DNA of 64,000 nt from Desulfotomaculum nigrificans DSM 574. GTDB lineage: Bacteria; Bacillota; Desulfotomaculia; Desulfotomaculales; Desulfotomaculaceae. Made by a program: the position numbers and the translations under genes. Of this stretch, positions 8,482 to 60,120 are shown in pieces. The stretch spans positions 746,257 to 810,256 of the forward strand of contig NZ_KI912183.1 in NCBI RefSeq assembly GCF_000189755.2. The letters run 5' to 3'. The number at the start of each line of letters is the position of its first letter. Within the stretch, counting starts at the first letter, position 1. The notes under the pieces were generated by a model, which was not told where the DNA came from, searched no databases, and was given only the letters and a program-made list of their open reading frames with translations.

Positions 8482-8501
8482 TTAATTAAGTGAATAATGG
8501 G

Positions 8502-8741
8502 GATAGAGGCGCGGCATTTAAGAGTACCATTGTGGAGGTAAGCACCATGAAGCAGTGGGAAAGGAAATGTCGCCGAAGTGTACAACTGATGCTTTAAGGT
8601 TGTATGCTGGTTCTATGCAAAATATGTATAGAACTGTCACAAATTTTTATTTGTGGAGAGCTATCATTCAACTAATAAACCGCGAGGTTTAAGCATACCC
8701 CGAGGTTTAAGGCCTTGAGTGTACAGCTCAAGGCCTTGTTG
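8502..8741 (+). promoter_or_regulatory. Lysine riboswitch (L-box) with terminator
   Basis: The aptamer (8502-8665) has the L-box landmarks in order: GATAGAGG-GCG at the 5' side, AAGAGTA, GGAGG, GAAAGG, GTCGCCGAAG, GCTGG, AACTGTCA and a 3' GGAGAGCTATC that closes P1 with GATAG. A downstream expression platform ends in an intrinsic terminator with an 11-bp stem (8709-8719 with 8727-8737) followed by a T-rich tract. An intervening AAACC-GCGA-GGTTT hairpin (near 8678-8691) and a repeated CGAGGTTTAAG could serve the alternative fold. It lies immediately upstream of the NhaC-family transporter, predicting lysine-repressed expression. Confidence 0.92.
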
Positions 8742-10572: not shown

Positions 10573-10608
10573 ACGAGCTGCATCACTTACGATGCAGCTC
10601 GTTCTCTT
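10573..10608 (+). terminator. Intrinsic terminator after the lysW-like gene
   Basis: ACGAGCTGCATC (10573-10584) pairs with GATGCAGCTCGT (10591-10602), loop ACTTAC, followed by TCTCTTC. Confidence 0.8.
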
Positions 10609-10609
10609 C

Positions 10610-10695
10610 AGCATGTCGGAAAGTCTTTCCGACATGCTAAAGGGCAAGTAAGGCTGCCGCCGGCCCAAGGGCTTGGCGACAGCCAAGTTTTCTTT
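10610..10695 (-). repeat. Hairpin-tailed dispersed repeat, copy A
   Basis: On the minus strand this 86-nt stretch starts AAAGAAAACTTGGCTG, passes through AAGCCCTTGGGC and GGCGGCAGCCTTA, and ends in a perfect 13-bp hairpin (AGCATGTCGGAAA with its complement, 3-nt loop, 10610-10638). The same block recurs at 41391-41483 inside tadG with about 85 percent identity. Here it lies in the intergenic space between two convergent transporter genes. Confidence 0.75.
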
Positions 10696-10701
10696 ATTAC
10701 T

Positions 10702-12170: not shown

Positions 12171-12237
12171 CGGATGCCTTTAACTAATTGATAAAAACAG
12201 AAAAACAAGATCACCGCTGTGCAGCGAATCTACCGTT

Positions 12238-12400
12238 TTCTCTGTCCTTTTGCCTGAGAGATTTAAAAGCTTAGTGCTATCTTGCCCCTTCGGCGCCCTA
12301 GGTAGGGTCTCTCCAGAGTCCTGTCCGTTAACGGTTCTACTATCACTAGTACCTGAGAGTTTAACTCCTTCGGTGGGCCAAAACGCCACTCTCCCGTCAA
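12238..12400 (-). promoter_or_regulatory. Tandem glycine riboswitch (two gcvT aptamers)
   Basis: Aptamer 1 (about 12316-12396) reads GGGAGAGT, GCCACCGAAGGAG-type core (CACCGAAGGAG), AACTCTCAGG, then GGACAGGACTCTGG. Aptamer 2 (about 12238-12315) reads GGAGAGACC, GCGCCGAAGGGGCAAG, ATCTCTCAGGCAAAAGGACAGAG. The paired CCGAAGG and CTCAGGxxA elements in each half are diagnostic of the gcvT/glycine class. It sits in the leader of the AgcS symporter. Confidence 0.93.
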
Positions 12401-28791: not shown

Positions 28792-29065
28792 AATAAAAAC
28801 CGCCCCTTAATAAGGGACGGAATTAATCCGCGGTACCACCCAAATTGTTCATACCACAAGCTGACGAACCACTCTCAGGATAACCATAAGTTATCCATCC
28901 CTTGATAACGGTAGGAACACCGGCACAACCTACTGGTATGTAAAATACGTTCAGTTGGCAGCTCAGGGGCGAACTTCTGGTAACTTTCATTAAGAGGGCT
29001 TTCAGTCAAGACCCTCTCTCCCTGTAATGAACTAATTTACCTTACTCTTCCCCGTCATCACCGTG
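28792..29065 (-). promoter_or_regulatory. T-box leader of pheST (Phe-responsive)
   Basis: On the minus strand the leader begins near GATGACGGGGAAGAGTAA. It then has a stem I with a TTC triplet in AGAAGTTCGCC (a plausible Phe specifier), the T-box sequence AATTTGGGTGGTACCGCGGA (28829-28848) and a terminator CCGTCCCTTA/TAAGGGGCGG followed by TTTTTATTTT (28792-28820). The T-box motif and terminator are unambiguous. The specifier codon is assigned by position and by the downstream pheS gene. Confidence 0.9.
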
Positions 29066-29084
29066 GACTATTAAATAATTTATT

Positions 29085-40168: not shown

Positions 40169-40333
40169 ATGAAAGAAATTATTATGAATCTATTAAGGGA
40201 TGAAAACGGACAGGGCATGGCTGAGTATGGACTTATCTTAGCCTTAATTGCTGCGGTTTGCATAGTTGCATTTAAAACCCTGGGGAGCAGCATTAATACC
40301 AAAATGGGTGATGTAAATCAACAGCTACAATAA
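40169..40333 (+). CDS. flp: Flp-family type IVb pilin
   Basis: A 54-aa pilin precursor, too short for standard ORF calling. The leader MKEIIMNLLRDENG ends with the Gly of the prepilin cleavage site. The mature part starts QGMAEYGLILALIA, giving the invariant Glu at +5 and Tyr at +6 of Flp pilins, then one hydrophobic helix. It should be cleaved by the CpaA peptidase encoded next and polymerised by the Tad machine. AAAGGAGA lies 8 nt upstream of the ATG. A perfect 15-bp stem-loop follows, which may set flp expression well above that of the machinery genes. Confidence 0.92.
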   Translation: MKEIIMNLLRDENGQGMAEYGLILALIAAVCIVAFKTLGSSINTKMGDVNQQLQ

Positions 40334-40438: not shown

Positions 40439-40942
40439 ATGACACCCGACATTGCCATAGGAGCCATTGTGACAATTTGTCTTTACACCGACCTGCGTTA
40501 CCGAAAAATATTTAACCTGGTTCTTTTACCAGCCTTCCTATTGGCCCTAGTATTCAATCTATCTACTGGCGGAATCGGTGGCCTCTTGTTCAGCCTGACA
40601 GGCGCCTTGCTTGGGTTGTCGTTACTTTTAATTCCCTTTATGTTAGGCGGCATGGGTGCCGGTGACGTTAAGTTACTGGCTGTTATCGGTGCCTGGCAAG
40701 GCCCTCAATTTGTTTGGTTCTGTTTCCTCTGCACCGCTATCGTGGGAGGAATCATCGCCACATTTCAACTTGTTAGAACCGGCAAGCTACGGCCAACCTT
40801 TAAATTCATCCTCTTTACCCTGGTCCCCGGCTCCCCTAAAGTAAACGCCTTTGGCACATTGGCCACCGCCAAAGTCGGTGAGGCCTTTCCCTATGGAGTG
40901 GCCATTGCCGCCGGTACACTGGCCACCTATGTGTTGAGGTGA
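40439..40942 (+). CDS. cpaA: Prepilin peptidase CpaA/TadV
   Basis: A 167-aa A24-family aspartic prepilin peptidase with about five membrane helices. The two catalytic Asp are in LYTDLRYRKI near residue 18 and GMGAGDVKLLA (GxGD) near residue 73. It lacks the N-methyltransferase domain of PilD, as expected of the short CpaA/TadV type that processes Flp and TadE-like pseudopilins. The ATG at 40439 follows GAGGAGG; a nearer ATG at 40433 is out of frame. tadE begins 4 nt after its stop. Confidence 0.93.
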   Translation: MTPDIAIGAIVTICLYTDLRYRKIFNLVLLPAFLLALVFNLSTGGIGGLLFSLTGALLGLSLLLIPFMLGGMGAGDVKLLAVIGAWQGPQFVWFCFLCTAIVGGIIATFQLVRTGKLRPTFKFILFTLVPGSPKVNAFGTLATAKVGEAFPYGVAIAAGTLATYVLR

Positions 40943-40946
40943 TGAC

Positions 40947-41360
40947 ATGATCAAGCAGGTTAAAAACTTTAACCGTAATCAGCGGGGGCAAACCCTGGTG
41001 GAATTGGCCCTCATTTTACCCATCTTAATCATACTTCTGATGGGAACCATCGAATTTGGCCGGATTTTCTTTACCTATTTAACCGTAACCCACGCCTCCC
41101 GGGAAGCCGCCCGGTCTACGGTTATTGCCACGGGCAAAGATGATGCCTATATTCGTAATAAGGTGCTGGAAGCAGCTTCCTGGCTAACCCCGGCTGACTT
41201 AAAGGTTGATGTTACCCCCTCTTCCCCCGATAACCGAACCTCCGGGGTACCGTTAAAAGTTACCGTAAGTTACCCGGTGCAGCTTTACACTCCTGTACTA
41301 AGTAATGTTTTAACCAATCCTTTTACCGTTAAAGCACAAACCACCATGCGCATTGAGTGA
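40947..41360 (+). CDS. tadE: TadE-like pseudopilin
   Basis: A 137-aa TadE-family protein. The N-terminus RNQRGQTLVELALILPILII carries the prepilin-like site (Gly, then Glu at +5) and a hydrophobic helix. The motif FGRIFFTYLTVTHASREAARSTVI near residues 33-52 is the TadE family signature. It is expected to be processed by CpaA and assembled in or near the Flp pilus base. Its stop is followed within 10 nt by tadG, and the spacing throughout this block indicates one operon. Confidence 0.9.
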   Translation: MIKQVKNFNRNQRGQTLVELALILPILIILLMGTIEFGRIFFTYLTVTHASREAARSTVIATGKDDAYIRNKVLEAASWLTPADLKVDVTPSSPDNRTSGVPLKVTVSYPVQLYTPVLSNVLTNPFTVKAQTTMRIE

Positions 41361-41370
41361 GGTGCGGCCC

Positions 41371-42399
41371 ATGAAAAAATTAACCTTAGCAAAGAAAACT
41401 TGGCTGGCGCTAAGCCCTTGGGCGTCGGCGGCAGCCTTAGTTGCCCTTGTGCATATTGGAAAGTTTAGACTTTCCAATATGCTAAAACAACTAGCCAGCC
41501 GGGAACACGGGTCAGCCATGGTTTTGCTGGCTTTGGCCATGACCGTCTTAATTGGTGCTGTGGCTCTGGTAACGGATTTCGGACTAGTGGCTTTAAATAA
41601 AAGCCGCCTGGCCAATGCAGCTGATGCTGCCGCCCTGGCCGGGGTGCAAGAATTACCGGAATATCCTATGGAAGCACTGGCGGTGGCCAGAAGCTTCGGC
41701 CAACAAAACGGGATTACTGATGAACAAATGCAAATCAAATTGGTACAGGATCTGGCCACCTCTCGGTATGTAGGGGTGGAGGTAACCGCCACCAAGACTG
41801 TTAACTACATTATGGCCAAGGTGCTGGGCTATACCACGGTGGATGTGCAAGCTAAGGCTGCCGCCCAAGTGATCCCGGTCACCTCTGCCTATGGTGCCGT
41901 CCCCCTGTTTGTCCCGGACACCCAACAGTTAATTTTTGGCCAACAGTATACCCTGAGATCCAAGGACGCAGATTTTGGACCCGGTAACTTCGGCGCCCTG
42001 GATTTTGGCTCCGGGGCCAACGACTTTGAGAAAACCCTGGCCCAAGGTTATCAAGGAGTCATTAAAGTTAGTTACGAAATTGATACCCTGACCGGGGTTA
42101 AGAAAAATAAAACCATTTGGGGTATCGAGGAACGTATTCGTGGTTGCACCCACGGCTGCACCTATGATCACTTTCAACCCGATTGCCCCAGGGTTATGAT
42201 TCTACCGGTGGTGCATTACGATAAACTAAACGGCCACAAGCCGGTGACAGTGGTGGGTTTTGCCGCCTTTTTGGTGGATAACGTTCGTGAAGCAGATTCT
42301 ATTGAAATTACCGGTCACTTTGTGCGCACCCTAACGCAGGGTGAAGGAAGCCTGGAGCAAGTCGATTATGGGCTGCGCACGGTAAAACTGGTTGAATAA
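41371..42399 (+). CDS. tadG: TadG-like pilus protein with an embedded repeat at its N-terminus
   Basis: A TadG/Flp_assembly protein, 342 aa from the ATG at 41371, which has GAGGTG upstream. The family core starts at REHGSAMVLLALAMTVLIG and continues VALVTDFGLVALNKSRLANA with ADAAALAGVQEL: one membrane helix and the DAAALAGA-type signature. A periplasm-facing (here extracellular) domain follows. Residues 8-38 (KTWLALSPWASAAALVALVH and following) are not part of the family. They are encoded by a 93-nt copy of the dispersed repeat also found at 10610-10695, inserted in frame. The helix-rich insert gives the protein a second hydrophobic segment. Translation may also start at the internal ATG just after the repeat (MLKQLASREHG). 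Confidence 0.85.
   Translation: MKKLTLAKKTWLALSPWASAAALVALVHIGKFRLSNMLKQLASREHGSAMVLLALAMTVLIGAVALVTDFGLVALNKSRLANAADAAALAGVQELPEYPMEALAVARSFGQQNGITDEQMQIKLVQDLATSRYVGVEVTATKTVNYIMAKVLGYTTVDVQAKAAAQVIPVTSAYGAVPLFVPDTQQLIFGQQYTLRSKDADFGPGNFGALDFGSGANDFEKTLAQGYQGVIKVSYEIDTLTGVKKNKTIWGIEERIRGCTHGCTYDHFQPDCPRVMILPVVHYDKLNGHKPVTVVGFAAFLVDNVREADSIEITGHFVRTLTQGEGSLEQVDYGLRTVKLVE
41391..41483 (+). repeat. Hairpin-tailed dispersed repeat, copy B (within tadG)
   Basis: The sequence runs AAAGAAAACTTGGCTGGCGC, AAGCCCTTGGGC, GGCGGCAGCCTTA, TTGCCC and ends in the hairpin GCATATTGGAAAGT/ACTTTCCAATATGC. It matches copy A (10610-10695, minus strand) except for scattered changes and small indels. At two stem positions G-C and C-G pairs in copy A are A-T and T-A in copy B, so pairing is kept. 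Its 93 nt preserve the tadG frame. Confidence 0.75.
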
Positions 42400-54447: not shown

Positions 54448-55531
54448 AGAATATTAATGTATTAGAGGTGTCAAACCAATCAAGGGCCAGAAGGTGAAGG
54501 TCATGATTACCAGGATCCCCATGATCATAGCACTGGCAGGAATACCGGTCATAAAGAATTCCCCGGTGGTAAATTGTTTAGATTCATAGGCCATAGCGTT
54601 GGGGGCAGCCCCGATCAAGAGTAGGAAGGGCATGCCGGCCATGGCTGTGGCACCGTACAGTATCAGTTCCGGGTTAACCCCAAGGTATTTAGCAATTACC
54701 AGCGCCACCGGCAATGTAATGGCAATAGCTGCCACATTCATGATGAAGTTGGTCATAATCAGCACCAGGAAGCAGATACCCAGTACAAATACCAGCCAGT
54801 GAGCATTAACCAACAGACCCAGCCACTTAATGGCAATCCATTGGGCCGCCCCTGTTTGCCACAGGCAGAAACCGATACTCATGGCACCGGAGAATAACAG
54901 CACGATGTTCCACGGTACTTTTTTCTCCAGATCTTCCACCGTGAGAATATTCGATAAGAAAAACAATAATCCTGCAGCCAATAATGGAACAGAGCGATCC
55001 ATGGGTTTTAAGGCGGGCACAACAGCCTGCATTACCAGCATAGCCAACGCGCAGAATACTACCACGCCCACAAAGATTTCTTGTTTAGTAACAGGACCTA
55101 ACTTAGCATATTCTGCTCTGGCCTTTTCCCGTAAGCCGGGAATTTTAGTTTTTTCCGGCTTATATATAATCATTAATAAGGCCCAAATTAAGAAAACTGT
55201 GATCCACCCAAAGGGGGCCATGTGTAAAGAGAAATCAATAAAAGAAACATCTACACCGGTAAACTCCTTATAAAAACCTACGGCAGCTGGGTTACGAGCA
55301 CCACCTAACAAGGTACAGATACTACCGGCACCAGCGGTATAAGCCATACCGATGAATAACGCCTTACCAAACTTGGTGGGTTTACCGTCTTGACCTTCAC
55401 CGTACAAAGCCAAGATAGCAACCAGAATCGGAAACATGGTGGCAGCTACCGCTGTATGTGCCATAATATGTGTCAGTAGAGCAGTAATTATAAACACACC
55501 TAATAAAATCTTCCTGGTATCTTCACCCACC

Positions 55532-55547
55532 ACATCTAACATTTTAT
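55532..55547. repeat. Target-site duplication of IS30 copy 1 (left)
   Basis: ACATCTAACATTTTAT here and again at 56866-56881. The first three bases (ACA) also match the element's own right end, so the true duplication is 13 to 16 bp. Confidence 0.85.

Positions 55548-56868
<1,321 letters not shown>

Positions 56869-58797: not shown

Positions 58798-60120
<1,323 letters not shown>

Follow-up and report, generated by a model that had tools for sequence, protein, structure and literature searches.

An in-frame copy of a dispersed two-hairpin repeat in the tadG gene of Desulfotomaculum nigrificans

The tadG gene of Desulfotomaculum nigrificans carries, shortly behind its start codon, a stretch of DNA that recurs elsewhere in the same genome, and the locus raises the question of how this stretch came to lie there and whether the residues it encodes matter to the protein. 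The gene occupies positions 41371..42399 of the forward strand, from ATG 41371 to a stop codon ending at 42399, and encodes a TadG-like protein of 342 aa. Positions are those of the window, meaning the whole stretch of 64,000 nucleotides that was analysed (G000:C1:746257-810256), from a source genome of 3.05 Mb in a single contig. The 5' neighbour of tadG is tadE (40947-41360; Pfam TadE, 64.4 bits) and the 3' neighbour is a cpaB gene (TIGR03177, 191.7 bits). The ORFs 40439-40942 and 40169-40333, neither of which gave an NCBIfam match, are presumably the genes for a prepilin peptidase and a Flp-like pilin.

The repeat copy within tadG, here copy B, is 93 nt long (41390..41482, forward strand) and is inserted in codon 7, its boundaries being set by the alignment of copies, the model match and the reading frame of the empty site. 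In the window, a covariance model matched copy B over 41390-41488, a span with six flank bases (E 8.5e-22). Two stem-loops, each obtained by folding and by covariation across species, make up the element: P1, an imperfect stem-loop at 41392..41448 on the forward strand (predicted -25.4 kcal/mol), and P2, a stem-loop of 14 bp with a 4-nt loop at 41451..41482 on the same strand (predicted -19.6 kcal/mol). Directly 3' of the insertion point is the sequence TAAAACA (41483..41489, forward strand), which flank statistics identify as a YAAAA-type tract. Removal of the 93 nt in silico leaves the leader MKKLTLVKQLASREHG, in which 15 residues precede the conserved Gly at position 16; no target-site duplication is seen in this reconstruction. 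The insertion exchanges a single Val for AKKTWLALSPWASAAALVALVHIGKFRLSNML, which is 32 residues long, so that TadG becomes 31 residues longer and the frame is kept, as the initial annotation had described. The same annotation had placed the copy between a good start and the family domain, and the Pfam Tad domain (PF13400, 40.1 bits with a cut-off of 22.3) indeed covers only residues 47-93, after the insert.

A search for TadG in 60 genomes, including the source genome, gave matches in 36 others, from which 29 orthologue loci were read; the matches in the other seven genomes were weak and partial, began at residue 33 or later and were left unread. Neither the element nor its peptide was found at any of the 29 loci, whose leaders were inspected and which were searched with the model for copies. 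The Trp/Ala-rich segment is therefore absent from all orthologues compared, as had been supposed for the TadG family, and no orthologue among the 29 carries the peptide without the repeat DNA, the combination that had been named as refuting the initial interpretation. Only one genome with the tadG insertion is known, and a search of named genomes with the TadG protein returned no relative. The leaders of G001 (MKIGRIIKRLMNEERG) and G003 (VKIKLLAQKLLKDEQG) have Gly at 16, just as in the reconstruction. The leader of G006 (MKKRILSFFSDDRG) has Gly at 14, two residues shorter than the reconstruction, which counts against the reading favoured below. After the Gly, TadG does not have the Glu at position 5 that is present in TadE. 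In the available portions of the sources, the TadV substrates named are Flp pilin, TadE and TadF (PMC10934763), and this Glu is described as common yet not invariant (PMC10191384).

Searching the source genome at the DNA level with a 330-nt query from the tadG start gave at least 28 rows, corresponding to at least 26 places with tadG included; this is a lower bound, obtained after omitting the reverse echo of the tadG hairpin and merging one split place. E-values at the places outside tadG run from 5.8e-33 to 6.1e-9, and the repeat identity of the tadG copy is far beyond chance. The second copy in the window, copy A (10605..10696, reverse strand, six flank bases included; model match E 2.7e-15), lies outside ORFs, between two convergent ORFs, and adjoins a terminator-like hairpin. 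Two further, weaker rows of the model search on the window are reverse-strand echoes of the hairpins of copies A and B. Copies aligned together with their flanks have sharp ends, marked by CAAAGAAAAC at the 5' side and ATATGC at the 3' side, and the first stem-loop contains an optional segment of 19 nt. At sites shared by genomes G002 and G005 (L163 and L118) the copies measure 118 nt in G002 against 100 nt in G005, so that copies gain or lose the P1-loop segment in place. In Virgibacillus litoralis (L219, G357:C25:41839-42110) three copies stand in tandem and nearly abut, an arrangement that could show how repeat copies multiply.

Support for the two-hairpin structure comes from alignment A4 (41 distinct rows), in which 90.3% of cells pair and 17 of 25 pairs have changes on both sides. 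None of 500 shuffles reached any of five measures, and sliding the partners gave a pairing of 29-54%. A4 was fitted to the P1 and P2 model and so leans towards it, and the covariation count rests on this alignment. RNAalifold, applied to the unfitted mixed alignment A3, recovered just P2, in which 8 of 10 pairs change on both sides; P1 was missed because its columns are misaligned there. In both alignments the AAG of the P1 loop and the CTT of the P1-P2 linker vary little or not at all, and the two could form a short pseudoknot.

Rfam scans of the window and of four other copy loci yielded no credible match to a known RNA family at the repeat. With gathering thresholds the window gave four matches, none at a repeat copy. 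Under permissive settings the four other loci gave 13 matches, all below the gathering score of their family. Among features elsewhere in the window, a lysine riboswitch (8496-8671), a glycine riboswitch (12232-12326) and a T-box leader (28810-29067) each scored above gathering. No description of the repeat family was found among the titles and opening abstract lines listed for Desulfotomaculum, Bacillus cereus and Bacillus halodurans repeats and for repeats near terminators, and the conserved core strings occurred only in an unrelated fungal typing paper. Within Rfam 15 and the literature searches made, the family looks undescribed.

The family extends well beyond the source genome. Model R1, built from 20 copies of the source genome, added a few weak places there (30.8 to 47.5 bits) and gave matches in 9 of the 60 genomes, with rows that include some reverse-strand echoes: at least 38 in the source genome, 42 in G002, 59 in G005 and 65 in G006, and at least 3 each in G004, G007 and G008. 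Weak matches in other genera came from G027 (at least 2) and G053 (at least 1); the same-genus genomes G001 and G003 had none among the candidates scored. An exact-pattern search of a collection of genome contigs returned 18 stretches, 16 of which match R1 at E below 0.01; these are from Lentibacillus (7), Virgibacillus, Oceanobacillus, Brevibacillus, Aneurinibacillus, Ureibacillus and Desulforamulus. With a further model, R2, and E up to 1e-6, at least 29 of 299 genomes in a sample of the phylum, the source genome included, and at least 20 of 214 genera had matches. At E up to 1e-4, R2 matches numbered at least 33 in Lentibacillus jeotgali, 52 in Brevibacillus daliensis, 56 in Aneurinibacillus terranovensis, 133 in Virgibacillus subterraneus, 68 in Oceanobacillus damuensis, 10 in Ureibacillus aquaedulcis, 3 in Desulforamulus aquiferis, 45 in Desulfosporosinus metallidurans, 142 in Virgibacillus litoralis and 149 in Oceanobacillus halotolerans; because these ten genomes were chosen for their pattern hits, the counts are uninformative on how common the family is.

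Two features characterise the sites at which copies are found. Stable folding is concentrated on the 3' side: the 50 nt 3' of the repeat have z-scores below -2 in 18 of 24 copies of the source genome, as against 3 of 24 on the 5' side, and in 34 of 50 copies from other genomes of the genus, as against 5 of 50 (scores from mononucleotide shuffles; the 50 copies include four orthologous pairs by eye). In addition, YAAA stands directly 3' of the repeat in 12 of the 24 source-genome copies, compared with a background of 652 of 44,551 positions, in 28 of 47 copies from elsewhere in the genus (the 50 less three orthologous duplicates, one pair being left in), and in 10 of 14 copies at the loci from the pattern search. 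The tadG copy is among the 18 (z -2.1), but no T-run follows its hairpin and it is not a terminator; that the tadG site is without the terminator which usually adjoins the copies counts against the main reading. Where an occupied site in G005 could be compared with its empty counterpart in G002, the TAAAAAA tract and the terminator were already present in the empty state, and this pair, the one resolved to the base, shows no target duplication. At another G005 site, G006 has neither the repeat nor alignable intergenic sequence, and G002 shares both insertions of the region; a second flank pair (L114 and G002) is too diverged to resolve. Genome G006 contains seven copies of the same or nearly the same sequence with unrelated flanks. 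This set and the occupied and empty pair together show that the repeat is mobile, and the flanks show a preferred target.

Placement within genes is rare. Among the 74 copies (24 from the source genome and 50 from others of the genus), only that in tadG is wholly inside an ORF of more than 106 aa, and 3 of 24 and 5 of 50, respectively, are in putative ORFs of 78-106 aa; ORFs were picked by length alone and only copies wholly inside were counted. The 3' neighbouring ORF points towards the repeat for 17 of the 24 copies and 36 of the 50, so the repeat is mostly antisense to that ORF, and control of a downstream gene, by riboswitch or attenuator, is put aside as an account of the family in general.

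Our preferred explanation, to which we assign a probability of about 0.8, is that a copy of this mobile two-hairpin repeat inserted in codon 7 of tadG, directly 5' of the TAAAACA tract of the leader. On this view tadG survived because the copy that landed happened to measure 93 nt and to be free of stops in the phase concerned. A net 31 residues would thereby have been placed in the N-terminal segment ahead of the membrane helix, with translation most likely still starting at 41371 and passing through the element, and the added segment is best taken as a tolerated passenger. Translation across the element and tolerance of the insert by the protein are the parts of this explanation that we infer. 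Upstream of the start, a GAGGTG ribosome-binding site overlaps the tadE stop (41359..41364, forward strand), and this site and the start codon keep their positions in G001, G003 and G006. For this reason we regard 41371 as the native tadG start and read-through of the insert as the simplest view. The repeat itself supplies an in-frame ATG (41479..41481, forward strand), and the repeat would be left untranslated, in effect a 5' untranslated insertion, if TadG were made from there. A start at this ATG would yield MLKQLASREHG, near the leaders of the relatives, and we retain it as a rival on account of this native-looking leader; we consider it improbable, as the codon lies within the 3' arm of the 14-bp hairpin without a ribosome site close ahead, while the native site and start are intact and conserved. 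An ancestral segment of TadG that relatives have lost would be next to impossible, and for the sampled genomes it is refuted: no point in its favour was found, the segment is seen at 0 of 29 orthologue loci, and the same DNA is present at 25 other places of its own genome. Against a tolerated insertion we count that a moderately hydrophobic insert could disturb topology and that TadG might be impaired. The best 19-residue Kyte-Doolittle mean of the insert is 1.64, compared with 2.74 for the native helix, and on an apparent-free-energy scale the two stand at +3.8 and -3.0; the insert is accordingly a weak candidate for an extra membrane helix on these predictions.

The initial annotation went further, proposing that the element had apparently been domesticated as a coding sequence and that its stem-loop possibly tunes translation. 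Selection on the peptide or on the mRNA hairpins, adjusting the level, topology or function of TadG, would be compatible with tadG and its neighbours being open, with a somewhat lower predicted exposure of the start codon when the element is present, and with hairpins that have not decayed, the tadG copy being the best match to the repeat model. We regard it as quite unlikely, more so than a start within the repeat. The tadG copy differs from the consensus of the source genome at six positions, which produce five codon changes, all of them nonsynonymous (P to L, P to S, V to I by two changes, I to R, D to N). Five of five is not unusual, since the neutral nonsynonymous fraction is 0.75. Two of the six differences form a compensated P2 base pair, by which the hairpin is kept and the protein changed. 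With such small numbers, and with differences that could be older than the insertion, the comparison yields no more than a lack of signs in favour of selection at the peptide level. Staying in frame would also require little luck, about 1 in 5: from 144 combinations of copy, orientation and phase (24 source-genome copies, two truncated ones omitted, in two orientations and three phases), 29 are divisible by three in length and free of stops, and at the exact tadG site and phase 15 of 48 stay in frame, the tadG copy itself counted. No second genome with the insertion was found among those searched. Domestication thus finds no support in one genome with these substitutions and these odds. The same applies to tuning, where the predicted shifts in exposure are small: the mean unpaired probability of the Shine-Dalgarno sequence goes from 0.42 in the empty to 0.36 in the occupied gene, and that of the start codon from 0.79 to 0.61. 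These predictions give little reason to expect strong tuning of translation by the element.

The tadG event adds a further instance to a phenomenon already known, for which the best documentation, described in PMC10969869, comes from Rickettsia. The Rickettsia palindromic elements (RPEs) are its closest precedent. As that text describes them, RPEs are dispersed palindromic repeats of about 150 bp, nearly half of which are inside genes, many in frame in protein genes whose product gains a segment (PMC10969869). The tadG copy resembles them, by description, as a palindromic repeat in frame in a protein gene. Unlike RPEs, the present repeat has a Gram-positive genus as host, 1 of 24 source-genome copies and 0 of 50 others of the genus in an ORF of more than 106 aa, and landing sites at YAAAA beside terminator-like hairpins. 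That proteins can acquire new segments when palindromic repeats insert in frame is known, though this route has been little tested. The tadG gene provides a clean example from a Gram-positive pilus locus, one in which the empty site can be reconstructed and close relatives can be compared.

Other small repeats share part of these properties. The available text of PMC3733652 describes REP elements as small structured extragenic repeats in many copies, some within genes. The present repeat is likewise small, structured and multicopy, yet in the copy alignment (A1) it has neither the GTAG nor the CGTC tag of the REP/RAYT families at its hairpin ends, it is about 93 nt long with two stem-loops, and no copy is beside the tested Y1-transposase loci. 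Coxiella QMITEs, according to PMC5896051, are repeats that are mobile and non-coding and that in some cases lengthen or otherwise change ORFs. This repeat, too, is mobile and can extend an ORF, but in contrast to MITEs it has no terminal inverted repeats (the 5' end (C/T)AAAG or TTAG and the 3' end ATGC are non-complementary), it forms two separate stem-loops, and it gave no target duplication at the base-resolved pair. For Bhal-1, Clop-1 and Clot-1, stem-loop repeat families of Bacillota genomes, PMC2267715 gives an intergenic position, structured repeat units of 74-93 bp and copy numbers of 19-44. These are of a similar kind and are set beside the present repeat by description, so that identity is neither claimed nor excluded.

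An element derived from IS200/IS605 has end hairpins, makes no target duplication and uses a fixed short target beside one end; the repeat, without duplication and with a YAAAA preference at its 3' end, invites this comparison. No parent element of this kind or flanking transposase was found at the Y1 loci tested. Y1 (HUH) transposase matches occur in all nine genomes of the genus, including G001 and G003, for which the search gave no copy, and no repeat copy lay beside the Y1 genes in 29 loci searched with R1 or in 22 searched with R2 (seven loci common to both sets, up to 1.5 kb on each side). On these two grounds a RAYT or IS200 transposase seems unlikely as parent at the loci tested. Carriage by plasmids or phages was rejected after neither collection gave a blastn match to one Bacillaceae-type copy. 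The source genome and four copy-rich Bacillaceae genomes encode a RAYT-like protein of some 190 aa (about 196 aa in the source genome), with 53-68% identity among the four Bacillaceae proteins and 39-45% to that of the source genome. The source-genome gene (G000:C1:160593-160889, L147) has no repeat copy beside it and is a lead to the mobiliser. Against the RAYT-like protein as mover, copy-rich G006 has a single Y1 match, of IS200 size, and G352, with at least 133 repeat matches, has only a weak Y1 fragment.

It is tempting, at somewhat less than even odds, to see in the insert a member of an undescribed family of miniature elements distributed across phylum-level Gram-positive groups. A putative enzyme would recognise the conserved single-strand fold together with the near-invariant linker and loop segments and would set copies 5' of YAAAA, chiefly in the A/T tracts of intrinsic terminators and without target duplication, while rare coding hits such as tadG would give rise to new in-frame protein segments. 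The family seems unnamed within the searches made; it is widespread, can be abundant and appears to land at terminators, and this target preference and spread make it more interesting than the tadG event. It also raises the testable question of how the element moves without a visible transposase of its own.

The window contains a separate pair of repeated sequences, two copies of a 1.3-kb element (55548-56868 and 58798-60120) that are 99.8% identical. Each has a transposase-like ORF, presumably IS30-type, of 348 aa in the second copy (58913-59959). In the first copy this ORF is shortened to 224 aa (55663-56337); the same copy also runs into the start of a transporter-like ORF, 54454-55617.
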